Source of the DNA: a virus
Direction: 5' to 3' (one strand)
DNA length: 35,302 bases
Virus record (IMG/VR): IMGVR_UViG_3300021960_000252
Location: 1-35,302 of that record
Part shown: one piece after another, positions 1,755 through 20,786 of the stretch
Layout: every line of letters begins with the position of its first letter
Position numbering within the stretch: the stretch's first letter is position 1
Notes under the pieces: generated by a model
Databases searched by the model: none
What the model saw: the letters and a program-made list of their open reading frames with translations, nothing else
What the model was told of the DNA's origin: nothing
Position numbers and translations under genes: made by a program

Positions 1755-3344
1755 TTATAAAGACTGTCGTCTAGTTAATCGACGCAAATTATCTGCGAAT
1801 CTACTCTCGATATTATCGAAAGCTTCTCTCAAAGTGTCCGAACACTCACCATTTAAAGATTGTAATCTTTCATAATATAAAGACCAGCCAATTGAGATAA
1901 GAAGCATTCTAGTAGAATCTTTAGTTTCTGCTGACTTATTATTGTAATGATTTCTAATAAATTCATTATCAGTATTAATCTTAATCACATACTTAAAAGA
2001 AGAGTTATCATTGGAATTTAATTCTATTAGAATTGGTAAATTGTATTTACTACAGGGCTCATCAACAATCTCAAATCCATGCTTTGGCTTTGATACAACT
2101 GTTTCGGGGGTAACTTTAACTAGTTTGTCTTTTGAACCTCTGGGATCATTAGGATCTTGAGGGCCTACTTTAACATCCCTTAAGACGTCAGAAGCATCTT
2201 GACCCATTTTTTGTAAATCTCTTTCAGATTCTTCTTTTGTTTGAGAAGTGTCTCGAGAGTCTCTTAGATCTGAATAGTGTTGAACCCAGGGTTTTAGCGA
2301 ACTAACCACTGCGTCAACAAGACTGGAATTTGGAGAAACTGAATCTTTTGAGTTTGACAAATTCATGAATTCATCAGAGTCTTCATGAAAATACAATGCC
2401 CATCGAATGTCTCGGCGGTTTTGAGACTTCTCCCACAACCCAGGCCATCTAGAGCCTCCGAAGACACCAGACTCTACAAGGCGGTTGTTTCTGAAAATGT
2501 TACCTCCTGATTTTGCCATTCTTCCGTGGCTTTTTTTAGGGTGGTTGTAGACTGAGACGGCTCTAAGCTTAATCCCAGAATTAGTCTCTGATGGCTCAAC
2601 GACATACATATCAATCAATTGCTCCGTGAGGGGATTATTCCACTCCAAAGGATCGTCATAACGGACAGACTCTCCGCCTATAGTAATAGATAGGCATTCC
2701 GTATACAAAGAATGATAATACGTCTTACCATACTGTTTCTTCAAGACACCTGAGACTTGTTTAATATTAAGGTTCGTCATTCTGTCTAAGTTTGTTAGAT
2801 AAATCAAAGTACCAGAATCCGAATTCATTTTATCAAGGTATGAATCGAGCATGGCAACATAAAATAGATTAGAAGGGTCTGTTGGGTCTAGAGATTGAGA
2901 GCCCCAAGCATCACGAGATTGTACTTCATGTAGATCATATTTTCGAATATTGTATTCTCCATTTTTCTTTGTAATGGTCACTTTTACGGCAGCAAGGGCT
3001 AATGCACCATTTGTACCGCCCATTCCGAATTTGCCATTATCATGCTCTCCATAGTCTCGATCAGCTCCAAGAGCAAATGAGTTTTTTAACTCATTATATG
3101 ACATTCCGTCACCGTCGTCAGCTATAATAATAGCGTTCATTTTATTTGGATTATTTGACTCAAAATCAACAATGACCTGTGTACAGTTAGCATCTTGTGA
3201 ATTATCTATCATTTCCAAGATTGCTGTTTTGTATTCGTATCCACTGGATCTCATACTATTAATGAATTTTGCACCAATCGGTGCTGGGTCGAACTTGATA
3301 TCGGCCATATTTTGCATATATTCTGCGTTACTTAATGATGACAT
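1755..3344 (-). CDS. GHKL-fold ATPase (Hsp90/MORC/rIIA-like)
   Basis: This 529-aa protein has an N-terminal GHKL ATP-binding domain. The N-box is AILEMIDNSQDA (about 41-52) with Glu44 and Asn48. The G1 box is DDGDGMS (about 76-82). The G2 box is GKFGMGG (about 104-110). The remaining about 400 residues are not recognised; they include a Lys/Gly/Arg-rich segment near RMAKSGGNIFRNNRL and a charged Ser/Asp/Glu region in the middle. In T4, rIIA also carries a GHKL domain, and bacterial MORC-like proteins share the EMIDNSxDA pattern, so an rIIA-type or DNA-clamp ATPase role is possible. It lies downstream of the ssDNA-binding protein terminator and upstream of the lipoprotein and uvsX. The ATG has a GGAGT site. 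The ATPase call is firm; the biological role is open. Confidence 0.8.
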   Translation of the reverse strand: MSSLSNAEYMQNMADIKFDPAPIGAKFINSMRSSGYEYKTAILEMIDNSQDANCTQVIVDFESNNPNKMNAIIIADDGDGMSYNELKNSFALGADRDYGEHDNGKFGMGGTNGALALAAVKVTITKKNGEYNIRKYDLHEVQSRDAWGSQSLDPTDPSNLFYVAMLDSYLDKMNSDSGTLIYLTNLDRMTNLNIKQVSGVLKKQYGKTYYHSLYTECLSITIGGESVRYDDPLEWNNPLTEQLIDMYVVEPSETNSGIKLRAVSVYNHPKKSHGRMAKSGGNIFRNNRLVESGVFGGSRWPGLWEKSQNRRDIRWALYFHEDSDEFMNLSNSKDSVSPNSSLVDAVVSSLKPWVQHYSDLRDSRDTSQTKEESERDLQKMGQDASDVLRDVKVGPQDPNDPRGSKDKLVKVTPETVVSKPKHGFEIVDEPCSKYNLPILIELNSNDNSSFKYVIKINTDNEFIRNHYNNKSAETKDSTRMLLISIGWSLYYERLQSLNGECSDTLREAFDNIESRFADNLRRLTRRQSL

Positions 3345-7611: not shown

Positions 7612-7980
7612 TTAGTCAATTGGTTCACCATTTTTTATACAAACAGACATCACATCTCTAGTAACATCTCCATTTTTTTTATAAAATTCCCACAATAAGT
7701 TATTGTGTGTCTCATCATAGCAAACAAAAGAGTTTTCATGTTCTCTCCAACAATTCATGCCGTCTTGAGTAAACTTTTGTTGTATATTTCTTATATCTCT
7801 GTTGACCTCAAACGAATTGTTATGAATTATAAATTGAACCTTTTCTCGAGAATAAAAGGTGGAGACATATTTTGTGTCATACCTTTGGGCTCTTTCATTC
7901 CATAATTGCTTTTCATGTCGACATACTTCATACACATCCGATGCTATTGCTGTTGCTATAAAGAATAATAAATTTACCAT
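7612..7980 (-). CDS. Small exported protein, unknown function
   Basis: The start is placed at the ATG at 7980 (MVNLLFFIATAIASDVYEVC), preceded by GAAGGAG, giving 122 aa. The first 14 residues form a short signal peptide with a likely cut after AIAS. The mature protein has Cys at about 20, 77, 87 and 114, fitting disulfides in the periplasm, and an aromatic/charged composition. No family is recognised. The start overlaps the polymerase stop (ATGGTAA), so translation is coupled to it. It is one of three predicted exported products in the left part. Confidence 0.7.
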   Translation of the reverse strand: MVNLLFFIATAIASDVYEVCRHEKQLWNERAQRYDTKYVSTFYSREKVQFIIHNNSFEVNRDIRNIQQKFTQDGMNCWREHENSFVCYDETHNNLLWEFYKKNGDVTRDVMSVCIKNGEPID

Positions 7981-9161
7981 GTGAACTCCTTCATTTTTCC
8001 TAAATTTTTTCCTAATGAACAATTAACTTTAAATTGTCCTAATCTTGTATCTCCGAACATTTCTTTAAGGTCCGGAATCAATCTTCTATCGTCTTTGTGT
8101 AGATCGATGACAATGCTGTCATGAACAACAAAAGCAACATGGGATCTCGATGCCCTAAGAAAGTTAGAAATTTTGCAAAACCTGTCAAGGGTGTTGTCTG
8201 ACGAAGTTGATTGTAATAGGTAGTTGAGGGCTTTGCGAACGGGAGCAGCAATTGACCTTCCAAATGGTGTTTCAACTTTACCTTCTTTATAAAATTTTTC
8301 GAGAAGCACTTCTCTGTCGTAATAATCTGATTGGATAGCTTGGGATTCTTGGTTATAGAGCCAAGCGAATATTTTTGTTTTGGCAGTGTCTCGATCAATT
8401 TCTTTATCGAAGACGTTTTTAATGTTCCACTCATGAATGTCCTCCTCTGGTTGCTCATGTCCTTGTAGTGCTAGCATTGTTCGAATTTCGGCTGCATTGA
8501 AGTCCAATTCAAGGAATGCATCGTTATTTGGTCTTACGTGAACTTTAAGTTCTTTTTTTAGATTGAGAATCGGAAAAGAATTTCTTTTTGTTGTCAATCT
8601 GCCGGTTACCGTACCGAAAATGTCATAGTCAACATATGGAGTTGTTTCTCCAAATGCATCATAAAGATGCTTTGCCTTCTGGTCTTCCGCTGAGATACAA
8701 TAAAGAGCAAAAGAGTTGAGATTTACTGGATGTCTTCTTAGCTCCTTTACAGCGGCTTGGGCTCTTTTTAATAAATTATAATGTTGTGGTTTCTCGACAT
8801 TCTCAAACACCCACTTTGTGATTTCATTTTTGGTATCGAAGTAGTGTTGTAAGTGTTTTTGTGGTACAAGGTCGTAAAAACATACATCTTCTAAGTTTAT
8901 TTGAGCGGTGCTAAAACCCTTGAAATGCGCCTTCAGCAGATTCTTTGCCGTTCCCCAACGTTCCCTAAGGAATTCGGGGCAAACCTCGTCAATCGACCTT
9001 CCAGACACCAGCAAATGCGCATAATCGATGTCTCTGCCGAACAGGTGGTCGGAATACGACCAAGTTTTTGTGATTCCCTCCGGAATTTTGTCTCGAATGA
9101 ATGTGCCGTCAATATAAGTTCCGGCGCAGTCAAGCTTGTTGTCCATTAACTGGAATATCAT
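7974..9161 (-). CDS. Minimal family A DNA polymerase
   Basis: This 395-aa protein holds the polymerase part of a Pol I-type enzyme and no exonuclease domain. GTVTGRLTTKRNSFPILNL (about 183-201) matches Pol I TGRLSSxxPNLQNIP. FLELDFNAAEIR (about 216-227) is motif A, with Asp220 as the metal ligand and DFNAAEIR in place of DYSQIELR. RDTAKTKIFAWLYN (about 257-270) is the O helix, with all four of R257, K261, F265 and Y269 in register. VVHDS (345-349) is motif C with the catalytic Asp348, but the Glu after it in Pol I is Ser. The 180 residues before TGRL replace the thumb and exonuclease regions. Rhodothermus phage RM378 is a known T4-like phage with a polymerase split from its exonuclease. It has a good GGAGGACAA site and a promoter at 9311-9339. 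Confidence 0.9.
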   Translation of the reverse strand: MIFQLMDNKLDCAGTYIDGTFIRDKIPEGITKTWSYSDHLFGRDIDYAHLLVSGRSIDEVCPEFLRERWGTAKNLLKAHFKGFSTAQINLEDVCFYDLVPQKHLQHYFDTKNEITKWVFENVEKPQHYNLLKRAQAAVKELRRHPVNLNSFALYCISAEDQKAKHLYDAFGETTPYVDYDIFGTVTGRLTTKRNSFPILNLKKELKVHVRPNNDAFLELDFNAAEIRTMLALQGHEQPEEDIHEWNIKNVFDKEIDRDTAKTKIFAWLYNQESQAIQSDYYDREVLLEKFYKEGKVETPFGRSIAAPVRKALNYLLQSTSSDNTLDRFCKISNFLRASRSHVAFVVHDSIVIDLHKDDRRLIPDLKEMFGDTRLGQFKVNCSLGKNLGKMKEFTW

Positions 9162-14356: not shown

Positions 14357-16021
14357 TTATCTTCCTCCAATTTTTACAGTTTTCCTATTGTAAGGAAAAA
14401 AATGTGCGTTTTCTTTAGTTATAATATTTGAATCGGGCTTTGGTTTTAATTTATAGTTATCTTCATCTGTTATCATGTAATCGTAATTTAATATTAGATC
14501 ACTTTTCGTATAAGTAAAGCTTAGTTTCAAACTGTAGGATTTGGGATATAGCATGCCATTCTCAACAAAATACCCCAGATCATGATCGATATTAAAAGAT
14601 AGTTCATCTAGGAATAGTGGAAGTGCAACTTCTACAATGTTTTCTGGACTTGTTATTATACTTTTTTTTCCCGTTGGTCTCTCAATCATTGATGGTATGT
14701 AAACCAGAACATTGTTTAGCACATCTTCATCTGTTAATATCCCCTGTTTTTGATCTGAACTGACCTGCTCGCTTCCATCATAAAAAGTTTTAAAAAACAT
14801 CCTAGATAAATATTGAATTTTAGCAGCATTTTTTTTGGCATCTAATAAATTTGCTGATGGCACATCGATTTCGAGCGAGTATTTAATTCCCATAAATTGA
14901 TTAAGATCAGGTTTGACCCTAGAGAATACAGAATGATTTGTTGGGTCGGCTTTTGCAAACTTCGTTTTTAAATCTCTGGAGAATTCTTTTAAAAATAAAT
15001 CAAACATAACGTATCTAGGCATTGAATCTTTTGTAGTTAATTTATTACTTATTTTATTAAACTCATAAATATTTTTTGATGAGGCTATAAATAAAAAAGA
15101 GTCTTTTCTCATTTTGACAGATGTATTATCAAGTTGATTCATGTTCTTCATAGACATGTCAACGTGAAAAGGAAACAATCCACTATCATATTGAGCTATT
15201 TCAGAGTTTAAAGTGAAAGGTAAGATTGTTTTGTTGTTTATAATATTCGAACTGCTATCAAACAAAGTCTCACTTTCATAATTTAATTTTAAATTTAGCT
15301 TTATATTTTTTGGGTATAAAAATTTATCAAATTCAAAAAATCCAGCATCTATATCCGGTTCATATTTTATTGATTCTATATAACATGGAAATCCTTTGCT
15401 GCCAAGATCATCAAAGCTCAAAATTTTGTTAGACTTGAACTTCTTACCTCCATTAACTAAGTTTGAAAAAAAAACAAAAAACAATGGAACAGTTGTATTA
15501 TATTTCTCCGTTACATAATCATACGAGAAGCCTATGGGTATCTCTTCTGTTTCATCTATCGTCCTTATCTGATTAGTAGGATTGCCATATTCATCTAACA
15601 CATATTCCACTCTTGATGTTGTTATTTCCTGCATCACTGCTCCTATGTTCCACCTTGTGCCCTTCATGGTGTATCTCTGCAATTCTTCAATTTTTGCTAA
15701 ATTATTTTTTGATTCATTAACACTATGTGCCGGCATGTCAATTGTTATGTCATATGAAAGACTACCTTCTTTCTCGGCTATGTAAATGTCTTCTTGATTA
15801 GAGATTCGACCCTCTTGTTTATTTTTAAAAAAACTTAAACTTAGAGATGATATGAACCCCTTAAGCGCAACCATTCTTTCAATTGGAGCAGATCCAATAT
15901 ATAAAATAAACTCTGATTCGCTTCCATCCGCACCAGTTCCTCGAGGACCACCATCGATAGAGCTTATAAAAACATCGCTCAAGTGATATTCATTATTGTA
16001 TTTTGTGGGAAACTTAGTCAT
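14357..16021 (-). CDS. Tail tube initiator/baseplate-like protein with two similar halves
   Basis: This 554-aa protein carries two matching halves. SLSYDITIDMPAHSVNESKN and NLAKIEELQRYTM near the front resemble YSLEIDVPSANLLDAKKNAA and KIQYLSRMF in the second half. FPCYIESIKYEPDIDAGFFE and LYPKNIKLNLKLNYES resemble LFLDELSFNIDHDLGYFVEN and LYPKSYSLKLSFTYTKSD. A beta hairpin followed by LYPKxxxLxL is typical of tube-fold proteins such as gp19, gp48 and gp54, so a tube initiator or hub role is inferred. It lies right after the tape measure gene and overlaps it as TAATG. Confidence 0.6.
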   Translation of the reverse strand: MTKFPTKYNNEYHLSDVFISSIDGGPRGTGADGSESEFILYIGSAPIERMVALKGFISSLSLSFFKNKQEGRISNQEDIYIAEKEGSLSYDITIDMPAHSVNESKNNLAKIEELQRYTMKGTRWNIGAVMQEITTSRVEYVLDEYGNPTNQIRTIDETEEIPIGFSYDYVTEKYNTTVPLFFVFFSNLVNGGKKFKSNKILSFDDLGSKGFPCYIESIKYEPDIDAGFFEFDKFLYPKNIKLNLKLNYESETLFDSSSNIINNKTILPFTLNSEIAQYDSGLFPFHVDMSMKNMNQLDNTSVKMRKDSFLFIASSKNIYEFNKISNKLTTKDSMPRYVMFDLFLKEFSRDLKTKFAKADPTNHSVFSRVKPDLNQFMGIKYSLEIDVPSANLLDAKKNAAKIQYLSRMFFKTFYDGSEQVSSDQKQGILTDEDVLNNVLVYIPSMIERPTGKKSIITSPENIVEVALPLFLDELSFNIDHDLGYFVENGMLYPKSYSLKLSFTYTKSDLILNYDYMITDEDNYKLKPKPDSNIITKENAHFFPYNRKTVKIGGR

Positions 16022-18450
16022 TAAGATGTTCCTCTTTTTTCCACTCTAGCATCAATAAAATCAGACAATTTATCGCCCTTTGACTCAACCACCACTTTAA
16101 TTGGAGGAAGCTTTAGTTCAGGCATGTTGACATCGACAGTTAATCTTCCTTCGCTTAAACTCTTTATAACTCCCTCGGAAGCCACAGCAAAAGAAGATTT
16201 GTTGCCATCGGTTGTCATAGCTATGAATCCATCAATTTTTAATGTTGAGAGTTCTTGCAAAGCAGATTTGACTGATGTAATTCCGGCTGCTATTTTTCCG
16301 GTATCCATTTTTGCAATTGCTGTTAAGTCAATTTTGCTTCCACCCATTGAGTGAAAAGATCCATGTAGTCCATCGAGTGATTTTGTGGTTGCTCCAATTG
16401 CTGTCGTTGCACTTCCCATGGATTCTGCCATAGAATCATAAGCTTTACCCGAGTGTTCTGGTAATTCCCAAAGTTCGGGAGAGCCAGACCTGTGGAACGC
16501 ATCAAAAATAGCCCCTAAGCCGGCTACAGCAGCAACAGCTATTCCGACCGGTCCGGTCGTCGCTGCCCAAAAAAGATACCACGCCGCCGTTGCTGCGGTT
16601 AGAACATCAATTAATATATAGAGTGCATACCCAGCTTGTTCAAAACCACCGGTGACCTCAGCAATCCCGGAAAAGATCTTGTCAAGCAGCATCCCTAAAC
16701 CTTGAAAAAAAGATAAAAAGGGAGTAAGTAATTTGAAGAACATTATTAAAATATTTGCCAATTTTGTTAAAGCCGGCACTAGTTCTGAGGCGTTTTTAGC
16801 GAGCTCAGCTTGGGCATCGGCAGCTTCTTGCTGTTTAGCTTGGTTGCTTAAATATTCAGATTGGGACATGTTTAATAGTCTTTGAGCCTCCGCGACAGAA
16901 CTTACGCCCATTGCTTGTTGTATATATAGTTTTTCATATTTTCCAAGTGAATCAAAGTTTCCAACTGATGAGCGAACCTCTCTTCTTATTATCTCAATTC
17001 TTTCCGAATCGGTTGCATTCAACATTTCCAGAGAACTTAAGTTTGTTCCTAAAACTGCATTTAGTTGAGAGACTTGATCAGCAGCGCCCGAAAACGTGTC
17101 GAATTTTTTAGATATTTCCAACAGCTTACCCATTTCTAAACCAGTGGCTTTTACTTGAGCAGATAGCTCTTTAAACATTGAATTTCCTTGTGATCCAAAT
17201 AGTGTTATTCTTTCGTAGGCAGTATTGAAGTTTCCAACCATTTTTTCTGTTGTTATACCAAGTTGTCTACCCATTATCGCAATTTGAGCAGTCGTTTCAA
17301 CTGCTTGCTCAGAGGTTAGTCCCATTGCTTTTTCGAAAGTATCTATTAATTTTGTAGATGTTGATGTGCTAACTCCAAACTGTTTTAGTTTAAATACCGA
17401 TGTTGCTAAGTTCACATTCATCCTATGCGATGTTGGATTAAAAGATGAAATGTTGTCTGCCATGGTTTTAATAACTTCTGAAGCTGCTTGTTCGTCTCCT
17501 CCGATCATTGTAAGGTTTCTTCCAATATCTCCAATTTGTTGTGCGAACACATTTCCAAAACCAGTAGCTCTTCCAAGATCTTTTGACACTTTTTCAATTT
17601 GTTTGGCAAGGTCATATGCAAATTCAACCGCACTAAACAAAATGTTTTTAAAATTGAGAGATTGTCCAATTAAGTTTTTACTAATCAGACTCGTCAATTT
17701 CATATTTTCTCCAATTGCATCTGACGATGCCATAATATCAACCATTCCGCCTAAAAATGTATCGGATGAATCTGCTGCCAAACCCACGCTTGTTGCTATT
17801 TTTGTGCTTATTCCACTTACTTTTTTATTAACATTTAAAATATTTTCATTAATACCTCTAGCTTTTTCTAGTATGTCTTTTCTTTTTTGTTCGTTGTCTA
17901 AATTAGCGTCCAATAAATCTAGAAGGGTTTGTTCACCTTCCAACTTCATATTCATGACTTCTTCTTCTATACCGGATCTTTCTAGTAGAGTCTTTAAAGA
18001 CACTGCTTCAGCATCGGCTACCTTGTTTATTTCTTCTAATTGCTTTCTCTTTAATCTTAATTGTTCTCTCTCTTCCTCTGTCTGTTGTGCAGCAGTCACA
18101 AAACCAGTATCTGTTGCGCTGTTTATTGTTTTTTGAAGAGCTAAGATTTCTTGATTCAACTGCTCTCGTTCTGCTTGGGCAGCAAGAATTTCTTGTTCTG
18201 TTACACGAGCATCTCTTAATACATCTGCGTTCTGTTGTAAGTTCAATAAGATTTTATTCTGAAAATTTAATTCTGACTCATATAGGTCGCTTTGAAGTCC
18301 AAGAGCTTCAGCTCTTTTTTTCTGAATTCTTAAAAGCTCCTCTTCTTTCTTTGTTGACTTCACTAAAATTTCGTAAAACTCTGATTGATTTCTTACGTCT
18401 TCCGCGGATGCCCTTCCGGCATTTGAGCCTGTACTTGTTGGATCTGCCAT
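16021..18450 (-). CDS. Tail tape measure protein
   Basis: This 809-aa protein has the tape-measure layout: a long Glu/Gln/Lys-rich coiled coil at the N-terminus (about 25-230), a helical middle with repeated amphipathic segments, then a strongly hydrophobic region (about 560-590, LANILIMFFKLLTPFLSFF; about 605-655, YILIDVLTAATAAWYLFW and PVGIAVAAVAGLGAIFDAF) that could cross a membrane. Tape measures set tail length at about 0.15 nm per residue, so the tail would be about 120 nm. It follows the assembly chaperone genes, as in most tailed phages. A terminator (18483-18512) and a late-type box (18471-18480) precede it. Confidence 0.85.
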   Translation of the reverse strand: MADPTSTGSNAGRASAEDVRNQSEFYEILVKSTKKEEELLRIQKKRAEALGLQSDLYESELNFQNKILLNLQQNADVLRDARVTEQEILAAQAEREQLNQEILALQKTINSATDTGFVTAAQQTEEEREQLRLKRKQLEEINKVADAEAVSLKTLLERSGIEEEVMNMKLEGEQTLLDLLDANLDNEQKRKDILEKARGINENILNVNKKVSGISTKIATSVGLAADSSDTFLGGMVDIMASSDAIGENMKLTSLISKNLIGQSLNFKNILFSAVEFAYDLAKQIEKVSKDLGRATGFGNVFAQQIGDIGRNLTMIGGDEQAASEVIKTMADNISSFNPTSHRMNVNLATSVFKLKQFGVSTSTSTKLIDTFEKAMGLTSEQAVETTAQIAIMGRQLGITTEKMVGNFNTAYERITLFGSQGNSMFKELSAQVKATGLEMGKLLEISKKFDTFSGAADQVSQLNAVLGTNLSSLEMLNATDSERIEIIRREVRSSVGNFDSLGKYEKLYIQQAMGVSSVAEAQRLLNMSQSEYLSNQAKQQEAADAQAELAKNASELVPALTKLANILIMFFKLLTPFLSFFQGLGMLLDKIFSGIAEVTGGFEQAGYALYILIDVLTAATAAWYLFWAATTGPVGIAVAAVAGLGAIFDAFHRSGSPELWELPEHSGKAYDSMAESMGSATTAIGATTKSLDGLHGSFHSMGGSKIDLTAIAKMDTGKIAAGITSVKSALQELSTLKIDGFIAMTTDGNKSSFAVASEGVIKSLSEGRLTVDVNMPELKLPPIKVVVESKGDKLSDFIDARVEKRGTS

Positions 18451-18515: not shown

Positions 18516-18671
18516 TTATCTCTTCTTCATTGCTTCCGCTTCTTTCTTGTATTCTTCGATTGTTCTTTTAAGCCACCATTCTCTAAGGCCTACCGGTAAG
18601 TTATATAACTCAAACAAAGACCAACCTCCATAATGTTTTAATATAAAGAAAGCTTCATAAACGTTCTCCAT
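18516..18671 (-). CDS. Second frame of a tail assembly chaperone (frameshift or reinitiation product)
   Basis: From the ATG at 18671 this is 51 aa (MENVYEAFFILKHYGGWSLF...), but the frame is open up to 18707 in the +1 frame of the gp26-like gene. The part LYNLPVGLREWWLKRTIEEY resembles the C-terminal part made by frameshift in tail assembly chaperones, where G and GT proteins differ in their tail. No ribosome site precedes the ATG; it lies 4 nt after the TGA of the upstream gene, so it is made by reinitiation or by +1 frameshift on TTTTTTT (18696-18690). It lies just before the tape measure gene, where such chaperones normally stand. Confidence 0.7.
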   Translation of the reverse strand: MENVYEAFFILKHYGGWSLFELYNLPVGLREWWLKRTIEEYKKEAEAMKKR

Positions 18672-18675
18672 ATAA

Positions 18676-19512
18676 TCAAGACTCAGGCCAAAAAAAGTCC
18701 GTTCCAAATGGAACGCTCATAACCTCCTTGTGGTCGCAATGTTTGCAAGTGAAGTCTTGGTTCATAACAATATCCGGAGAAATAACTTTAAAGCAATCCC
18801 TAAGGTATTTAGAATCTGTTGCAACCATATTGTCGCAAACATAATTAACAGTATTAGCATCAGAGTAGCCGTTAAAATCAACGACAAAGTACTTCATTTG
18901 CTTTGTAATCATGTCGCTTGTCATTTCCTTACTGGAACCCTTTGAAACAATGTCGAGCTCATCTTGACCCATTAGCGGTCGAATACAGGCATGTATATTT
19001 GATAAAGGAAGTTCCGTGGTAAATGTTCCGTCATCTTTATATTCTAAGTCTGTCCCATCAACATCAAAGCCATCATACATTTCGTAGTTTGCAAGGTCGA
19101 ATTGAAACTTTGATTGCTCTCCGCACGCTGGGCATTGAACTTTTGCTTTATAATCGGCACCATAGGCTGATGCTCTTGCAAAAACTAAGATTGCGTTTCT
19201 GTCTCCGACATAAAGATGTCTTGCATTAATGCTTTTGTCGACTATTAAATTTTGAATAAGTCTGTCGATAGCAAGACCTTTCTTGAGAAGAGATCTGTTG
19301 GTTAAGATATCTTCATCTTTCGCGGTCATGTATTTGATCTCAATTGAGTCTTTTCCTTTTAAAGGATGTCCTTCTGGATATCTTCCTTTTGATGGCAACT
19401 CGACAAATTGAGTTGGAGCAACAAAGTCCATTGGGTTTGGCATTTGTGGGGCATCTTCTGATGGTGTTGGTTTATGACCGCCCATCAATCGGTCTTCATT
19501 ATTTCTTCTCAT
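18676..19512 (-). CDS. gp26-like tail/baseplate assembly protein with zinc-ribbon Cys
   Basis: This 278-aa protein has a conserved-looking middle (MTAKDEDILTNRSLLKKGLA and HLYVGDRNAILVFARASAYG) and two CxxC pairs, C127-x2-C130 (CPACGEQ) and C256-x2-C259 (CKHCDHK), fitting a zinc ribbon. It ends VPFGTDFFWPES. Its size, position before the tape measure and this motif pattern recall gp26-type assembly proteins of T4-like phages, which may act as the tail assembly chaperone. The last codons contain the T7 run where frameshift into the next frame could occur. The start ATG at 19512 has a GGAG site. Confidence 0.7.
   Translation of the reverse strand: MRRNNEDRLMGGHKPTPSEDAPQMPNPMDFVAPTQFVELPSKGRYPEGHPLKGKDSIEIKYMTAKDEDILTNRSLLKKGLAIDRLIQNLIVDKSINARHLYVGDRNAILVFARASAYGADYKAKVQCPACGEQSKFQFDLANYEMYDGFDVDGTDLEYKDDGTFTTELPLSNIHACIRPLMGQDELDIVSKGSSKEMTSDMITKQMKYFVVDFNGYSDANTVNYVCDNMVATDSKYLRDCFKVISPDIVMNQDFTCKHCDHKEVMSVPFGTDFFWPES
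18690..18696 (-). promoter_or_regulatory. Candidate +1 frameshift site (T7 slippery run)
   Basis: The minus strand reads GAC TTT TTT TGG CCT in the gp26-like frame. Moving forward one base at TTT/TGG re-pairs tRNA-Phe on TTT and enters the open downstream frame (GGC CTG AGT CTT GAT). The fused product would have about 274 + 57 = 331 aa. The next in-frame codon is Trp (TGG), a possible pause. Confidence 0.5.
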
Positions 19513-19531: not shown

Positions 19532-20188
19532 TTATTGTGATCTTCCATCTGTTTCAAAGGTTGTTGCATTTTTGTCTGTTAATTCTTCTAGCACGGCCCA
19601 ATCATACTTAACGTCGATTGAATATTCAACGAGCCCATCATCTCCATAATCTAAGTCTCCCCATGAAACTTTTGTTATGATTGGATTATGAAGAACCCAT
19701 TTTTCAATTGTCTGCCCATTAGAGTTTATTTGATGTATCTCTAATAATTTTCCAAAAGAGTTGTCAATTGTTGAGGCTTTTTCTGGGCTTGAAATTGATT
19801 TCGCTCTCTGAGAGCTGCCCGTATCCCCAGATGGGGTTGAATAACCAGAAGCCAATAGCATTTCCCATAAAGCATTGGCTGTGGAAGTTAAGCTTTTATT
19901 AGCGGTGTCATCTGCGGCGGTTCGTGTTCTTTGATCAAAAGTGAAGGTTTGATCAAAATGACCAATATCGACAAGAGTAATTGTTATTGGATCCCATTTT
20001 GCAATACCAGGATAAGAATAGTAATGGTTAATCATCTTATATTCTTTCGGTTCAATATTAACTTTTGGCTTTGAAACTGACTTGGCGGACAAGACATTGT
20101 TGCCATTGACGCTTCCAAACTTTAGCAAGAACTTATTCTTCCTTGTTGGACCTCTTTTGCCCTTGAAATCTTCTCCCCACCAAGTCAT
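19532..20188 (-). CDS. 19: Tail tube protein, paralog B (gp19-like)
   Basis: This 218-aa protein starts MTWWGEDFKGKRGPTRKNKF and shares with its upstream neighbour the run of VSKPKVN, YYSYPGIAKWDPITITLVD, VEKWxLHNPxIxKVxWGDLDY and a C-terminal YxxDVKYDWA. This is the gp19 tail tube fold, which stacks as hexamer rings inside the sheath. It differs from paralog A by a longer C-terminus (ELTDKNATTFETDGRSQ) and an insert around residues 85-130 (TRTAADDTANKSLTSTANAL). The ATG has an AGAGG site, 10 nt after the stop of paralog A. Confidence 0.85.
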   Translation of the reverse strand: MTWWGEDFKGKRGPTRKNKFLLKFGSVNGNNVLSAKSVSKPKVNIEPKEYKMINHYYSYPGIAKWDPITITLVDIGHFDQTFTFDQRTRTAADDTANKSLTSTANALWEMLLASGYSTPSGDTGSSQRAKSISSPEKASTIDNSFGKLLEIHQINSNGQTIEKWVLHNPIITKVSWGDLDYGDDGLVEYSIDVKYDWAVLEELTDKNATTFETDGRSQ

Positions 20189-20198
20189 TCAAAACCTC

Positions 20199-20786
20199 TT
20201 AAGTAATGCTTCTATTAAATACAGGATCGGTGTCATCATCATTGTACGTAGCCCAATCATAAGTAAATCCTACTGTGATATCAGAAAGATCTTCTGAGCC
20301 ATAATCCAAATCTCCAAAAGCAACTTTATTGATAAAAGGATTGTGTAAGGTCCATTTTTCAACACTATTACCATCTGAATCTAATTGATGGATCACAACT
20401 GATTGAAGAGCAGCGGTCGCTTTTCCTTTTGAAATAGTGTGAAAAGAACGTTGCCTTGCGCCTTGATCTTTTATATAGTCTGCCGTTGGATACACATATC
20501 CAGATTTTTCTAGAATTTCCAGAAGCTTGGTTGATGCATCTTCACTGATTGGATCAACTAGGGTTGCTTCGACGTCTTCCCATTTTACAGATCCCGGAAA
20601 CTTAAATGTGTGTCCCATAAATTTATGCTCTGTTCCTGCCTCAACATTGATTGCTGGTTTTTCGACACTTTTAGCATACCATACGATTCCCTCGGTGGCA
20701 CCAAGGCCACCAATCTCAAGCTTGAACCTAAATTTTCTTTTTGGATCTTTGCTTGCCGCGTCCAATCCTTCTCCCCAAAATGCCAT
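20199..20786 (-). CDS. 19: Tail tube protein, paralog A (gp19-like)
   Basis: This 195-aa protein starts MAFWGEGLDAASKDPKRKFR. Conserved elements are AKSVEKPAINV, FPGSVKWEDVEATLVD, EKWTLHNPFINKVAFGDLDY and ITVGFTYDWA, shared with the next gene. It directly follows the sheath gene, the usual order gp18-gp19. It is the likelier main tube subunit because it is closer in length to gp19 (163 aa in T4) and comes first. The ATG has a TAGGAG site. Confidence 0.88.
   Translation of the reverse strand: MAFWGEGLDAASKDPKRKFRFKLEIGGLGATEGIVWYAKSVEKPAINVEAGTEHKFMGHTFKFPGSVKWEDVEATLVDPISEDASTKLLEILEKSGYVYPTADYIKDQGARQRSFHTISKGKATAALQSVVIHQLDSDGNSVEKWTLHNPFINKVAFGDLDYGSEDLSDITVGFTYDWATYNDDDTDPVFNRSIT

Follow-up and report, generated by a model that had tools for sequence, protein, structure and literature searches.

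A predicted programmed +1 ribosomal frameshift in a T4-superfamily tail assembly chaperone gene of a marine T4-like phage

Introduction

Frameshifted tail chaperones have been described in -1, -2 and +1 versions, with T4 listed as an exception (PMC5009743). Phage +1 frameshifts include those in structural genes of the Listeria phages PSA, A118 and A500 and in the haloarchaeal HSTV-2 (PMC5009743). In T4-like phages, gp26 and gp51 are tail chaperones, and some phages use a two-gene solution (Vladimirov, Gautam and Davidson, 2022, as cited in PMC12846349 and PMC10885494). As far as these citations convey, the two genes meant are presumably 26 and 51. Because that work precedes ours, the short/long relation of T4 gp26 and gp51 was dropped as a claim of novelty.

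Tail chaperone frameshifts are classically of the -1 type, and T4 was long seen as the phage without one. The stretch of DNA analysed here (35,302 nucleotides, hereafter the window) derives from a marine T4-like phage and carries a T4-superfamily tail assembly chaperone gene that, judged from comparative sequence data, very probably undergoes programmed +1 ribosomal frameshifting.

Results

Layout of the junction

Detection of a Gp23 major capsid protein, gp32, RecA and a tail sheath protein identified the window as a piece of a T4-superfamily phage. Between its replication and tail genes, the window also encodes a 395-aa protein with a partial match to family A DNA polymerases (7974-9161, minus strand; Pfam just under cut-off, PHROG 17 with E 3e-18); in a T4-like phage, a family B DNA polymerase is expected. 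Other minus-strand genes encode a 529-aa protein with a GHKL-type ATPase domain (1755-3344; HATPase_c_3, E 1.5e-22) and two adjacent tail-tube-like proteins, both assigned to PHROG 4542 (19532-20188 and 20199-20786). The junction comprises the following features:

18676..19512, minus strand: gp26-like gene, short chaperone of the TAC-N type, 278 aa, TGA at 18676-18678 (PF12322, PHROG 150, AlphaFold model)
18688..18699, minus strand: predicted slip site GAC TTT TTT TGG with T7 run at 18690-18696, near-invariant in 90 relatives; P-site codon UUU, zero-frame A-site codon UGG, +1 A-site codon GGC
18516..18689, minus strand: +1-frame extension, predicted C-terminal domain of the long form, 57 aa plus stop at 18516-18518; homologue of mini-gp51 and of the T4 gp51 C-terminus
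18669..18671, minus strand: in-frame ATG of the extension (MENVY), rival start; no Shine-Dalgarno sequence, missing in 23 of 90 relatives
18723..18729, minus strand: Shine-Dalgarno-like AAGGAGG inside gp26, ending 26 nt 5' of the T run, with synonymous-site conservation
16021..18450, minus strand: tape measure protein gene, 809 aa, next downstream (PHROG 1533, E 3e-5)

The gp26-like ORF ends in GAC TTT TTT TGG CCT GAG TCT TGA, encoding ...GTDFFWPES. On the same strand, the +1 frame is open from 18716 down to the stop at 18516, and its 57 post-slip codons (18519-18689) encode GLSLDYMENVY...AMKKR. The ATG of the extension lies 4 nt 3' of the TGA and lacks a usable Shine-Dalgarno sequence. A first-pass annotation had described this gene end with a T7 run in its last codons, the open +1 frame with a 57-aa extension, the nearby ATG without a ribosome site and the location just before the tape measure gene; all of these were confirmed. 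By itself, TTTTTTTGG is unremarkable (3 occurrences in the window vs 1.4 expected), and the junction exceeds chance because of its conservation in relatives, not because of the abundance of this motif.

The gp26-like ORF matched PF12322 (E 2.5e-16; 60.5 bits, cut-off 24.5) and the PHROG 150 baseplate hub (E 1e-18), and a profile search of solved structures with gp26 gave no match. The two parts of the protein were folded separately. In the AlphaFold model of gp26 (pLDDT 81.5), the last element is a short helix formed by the DFFW slip region, while the extension was modelled as a helical module (pLDDT 87.6; helices 6-22, 27-30 and 35-58) whose first helix starts before the ATG-encoded Met. Foldseek linked gp26 to T4-like hub proteins in BFVD and, weakly, to the HK97 tail chaperone 2OB9 in the PDB (prob 0.51, E 1.3); a fold search with the extension yielded nothing significant. 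Within the window clade, four cysteines of gp26 (C127, C130, C256 and C259) are invariant and form two CxxC pairs, which suggests a putative zinc site.

Frame constancy among relatives

The gp26-like protein and the 51-aa segment that starts at the ATG were each used as query in scans of viral contigs (80 loci each). Removal of duplicate junctions left 90 distinct junctions, window included, with gp26 identities of 40-100%. These relatives are uncultured contigs of common ancestry, so that junction counts are not independent. All 90 distinct junctions (90/90) place the extension in +1 with respect to gp26 and keep it open across the stop. Two neighbouring frames served as controls: that of the next long ORF against the extension (6/13/6) and that of the gene before gp26 against gp26 (24/33/23). 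Both were distributed randomly, indicating that the constancy is specific to the gp26/extension junction and does not reflect general inertia. The comparison of related phages proposed in the first-pass annotation thus showed a near-invariant site and an open second frame throughout; relatives without the run, or with a single continuous gene, were searched for and none was found.

These data also bear on a sequencing or assembly error that split one continuous gene. Homopolymers are error-prone, and the record of Stenotrophomonas phage IME-SM1 deviates at its own run; comparison nevertheless refutes this explanation, whose probability is negligible, since two frames are kept in every junction and a continuous version does not occur among them.

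Slip site and selection in the +1 frame

The sequence GAC/GAG/GAT-TTT-TTT-TGG-(C/T)CT was found in 86 of 90 junctions, with GACTTTTTTTGGCCT in 77 and variants of the forms GAG/GAT TTT TTT TGG and TTT TTT TGG TCT. Exceptions were TTT CTT TGG CCT (L051) and TTC TTT TGG TCT (L067, L072 and L080). At the two Phe codons of the site, TTT is used in 87/90 and 89/90 junctions and TTC in 3% and 0%, as compared with a TTC share of 27% among Phe codons elsewhere in the same genes. Double coding (WP in frame 0, GL in +1) fixes the adjacent GGCCT and also constrains the invariant UGG of the window clade, a candidate for the slow A-site codon of a programmed +1 shift; the choice of TTT at the slip site is outside this constraint. 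In L067, L072 and L080, a +1 stop on the 5' side and the zero-frame stop on the 3' side confine the slip to 20 nt, bounded to ATTTCTTTTGGTCTAGACAA in L067, and TTT-T is the sole re-pairing site in loci of this type. Re-pairing of a P-site tRNA at +1 (UUU to UUU/UUC, or CUU to UUU) is possible at all sites inspected, with Listeria phage LIS04 requiring its first UUU. The canonical -1 heptamer X XXY YYZ, the commonest version and not an obligatory one, does not describe the window, which reads C TTT TTT T and has its extension in +1.

Selection on the +1 frame was evident 5' of the conserved domain: codons 4-12 had a pN/pS of 0.24, while the two other frames gave 1.49 and 1.57. Sequence upstream of any start thus evolves as +1-frame protein, as expected if it is translated in +1.

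This result counts against termination-reinitiation (translational coupling), in which ribosomes that had terminated at the TGA would begin again at the ATG 4 nt on and produce a separate 51-aa protein. Some reinitiation may occur: the ATG lies 4-7 nt past the stop in most relatives, separate mini-gp51 genes are annotated in public records of cyanophages, and Vibrio phage K474 has TAATGATG without a clear heptamer. As the source of the extension, however, reinitiation is very unlikely. Codons between the stop and the ATG are under purifying selection. Between the slip site and the FFxLK domain, ATG is missing in 23/90 junctions, ATG, GTG and TTG are all missing in 19/90, and in 3/90 even CTG and ATH do not occur. 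Shine-Dalgarno matches ahead of the ATG reach 4 nt at most, and this in few loci. The frame of the extension is constant (90/90) while flanking genes vary, the slip site is fixed at synonymous positions, and the zero-frame stop of L149 and of L057 is located 3' of the ATG.

Two further routes would reach the same frame. A -2 shift, as in phage Mu, would add one Phe (GTDFFFGLSLDY), and in the window, as in most relatives, the T7 run does allow the Phe tRNA of the P site to re-pair at -2. The exceptional sites of L051 and Flavobacterium phage immuto (TTT CTT TGG), of the L067 type (TTC TTT TGG), of the uncultured phage LR756508 (TTT CTA) and of Streptococcus phage GXN1 (TTC TTT CGT) allow re-pairing at +1 but not at -2; +1 is favoured on this ground, and a -2 shift is highly unlikely. 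Transcriptional slippage on the T7/A7 run, yielding mRNAs one U short, would fit a homopolymer of seven. It is extremely unlikely, as the arrangement is kept with runs of 3-4 T (L051, L067, immuto and LR756508).

Programmed +1 frameshifting was preferred over reinitiation because of the constant frame, the conserved slip site, purifying selection in +1, relatives without a start codon and stops located after the ATG. The second frame overlaps gp26, has no start of its own, is conserved and is open, as expected of a frameshifted chaperone. The frameshift reading of the junction offered in the first-pass annotation is thus strongly supported.

Homology of the extension and the -1 clade

The +1 arrangement with UUU-Y sites also occurs in Microcystis phage Mel-JY01, immuto, LR756508, GXN1, Bacillus phage SP-15 and LIS04, the last of which has a pyrimidine after its first UUU only. 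The gp26 genes of S-PM2, P-SSM2, HTVC008M and KVP40 also have a very small 'gp51' after them, but its frame is -1 and the heptamer before it is T TTT TTC or T TTT TTT. Among cyanophage-type contigs, T TTT TTC with a -1 extension was present in 56/56 distinct cases, and the -1 arrangement with either heptamer was further observed in C48C1, AsFcp_2, OLIVR5, X1, Atu_ph07, PBECO4, RaK2 and Vibrio 2.275.O.

Extension profiles were compared by hhalign, with E-values that are pairwise and not database E-values. The window-clade extension matched that of the cyanophage clade over its full length from the slip codons (95.6%) and the Mel/immuto extension (97.9%); the cyanophage-clade extension in turn matched the C-terminus of T4-type gp51 (96.8%). 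Direct profile comparison of the window-clade extension with T4 gp51 was negative (0.07%), so the link between them runs through the cyanophage set. A direct search of phage records and Pfam with the 51-aa segment gave no match. The tail chaperone identity previously assigned to this gene is supported by PF12322, by the placement before the tape measure gene and by the homology between the extension and gp51 in T4-like phages.

T4 gp26 and gp51 both match PF12322. T4-type genomes contain two PF12322 genes and all sampled frameshift phages with a match contain one, a count in which Mel-JY01 and immuto fall below the family threshold. A second PF12322 gene with an in-frame extension was not present in 184- and 187-kb relatives (one copy each); the window itself is a 35-kb fragment. 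In a 52-row tree whose root and some long branches are unsure, the +1 rows formed one clade (support 96/90) and the T4 duplicates were placed beside KVP40 and AsFcp_2, both of the -1 type.

In Vibrio phage K474 (L271, approximately 2200-2230), gp26 is followed by TAATGATG and there is no -1 heptamer; frameshifting was possibly lost in favour of coupling. In IME-SM1 (L270, approximately 2220-2240), the T run of gp26 differs in length and frame 0 continues for about 27 codons, which may be a natural change or a sequence error. In one T4-type genome (G011, L288), the gp51 gene seems split in two pieces, the first an ORF of 120 aa.

A Shine-Dalgarno-like element upstream of the site

Shine-Dalgarno sequences that stimulate frameshifting stand 10-14 nt from the site for -1 and 3-6 nt for +1. 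An element at the RF2-type spacing (3-6 nt 5' of the shift codon) was absent in the +1 clade. Instead, AAGGAGG or GAGGAGG occurs inside gp26, 17-27 nt 5' of the T run, in the window and relatives. For the +1 clade, the signal covers -32 to -18 (dG -9.9 vs -1.5 background); for the -1 clade, it covers -20 to -6 (dG -6.9 vs -1.6 background), where -1 stimulators usually lie. GAG encodes every Glu at codon -12 (54/54) and at codon -9 (28/28) of the +1 clade, against a background of 30%. We know of no stimulator at a spacing of 17-27 nt. Two uses of the element, initiation inside gp26 and ribosome binding for MENVY, were rejected, as the start codon is unconserved and the spacing is wrong. It is possible, if doubtful, that a single switch between -1 and +1 took place at the same Phe-Phe codons and that the element acts as a new stimulator in the +1 clade.

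No conserved downstream RNA structure was found by alignment folding, and single-sequence folds gave only mild signals. A hairpin 5' of the slip site (GTTCC-ATTT-GGAAC) was discarded because it tracks the coding of VPFGT and is not kept in relatives with VPFTA.

Discussion

The occurrence and efficiency of slippage, the tRNA step and the chaperone role are inferred. In the proposed mechanism, the majority of ribosomes would terminate at TGA 18676 and release the short gp26-like form. With tRNA-Phe on UUU in the P site and UGG in the A site, a fraction would re-pair one base forward, from UUU to UUU in the window and from UUU to UUC or CUU to UUU in relatives. Shifted ribosomes would read GGC next and synthesize a long form of approximately 331 aa with the helical 'gp51' domain at its C-terminus. 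On the model of lambda G/GT, the tape measure protein would be coated by many copies of the short form and few of the long one, and the C-terminal domain of the long form would recruit tail tube subunits.

If correct, one protein family has arrived at three solutions to one need: shifting by -1, shifting by +1, and encoding the two forms in separate genes. The large +1 clade has cultured members, among them Microcystis phage Mel-JY01, Flavobacterium phage immuto, Bacillus phage SP-15 and a Streptococcus agalactiae phage; current annotations of its phages omit the predicted long forms. The +1 and -1 clades constitute a natural pair for testing what determines the direction and rate of slippage. 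The existence of a +1 clade appears new, as do its relationship at the same codons with the -1 clade and the Shine-Dalgarno-like element so far upstream of the site.

The lambda G/GT shift is a -1 shift on GGGAAAG. Lambda and its relatives share with the window a gene before the tape measure gene that yields a short product and an extended one at low level (Xu, Hendrix and Duda, 2004, as cited in PMC5009743), although sequence homology between lambda G/GT and the window is not detectable and the gp26 fold is weakly like that of the HK97 chaperone 2OB9. The Mu -2 shift reaches the +1 frame of a tail chaperone, as predicted for the window, but several of the relatives studied here cannot re-pair at -2. 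PSA-type phages and HSTV-2 shift by +1 in a virion-assembly gene, as is predicted here; PSA-type sites, however, have CCC before a stop or other codon, whereas the window has UUU before UGG, in a chaperone gene. The closest likeness is to gp26/gp51 of T4-like phages, with which the locus shares PF12322, a homologous C-terminal extension, the position before the tape measure gene and predicted short and long forms. These forms are encoded by two genes in T4 (26 short, 51 long) and would be produced by a -1 shift on T TTT TTC/T in cyanophages, KVP40 and jumbo phages, and by a +1 shift on TTT TTT TGG in the window clade.
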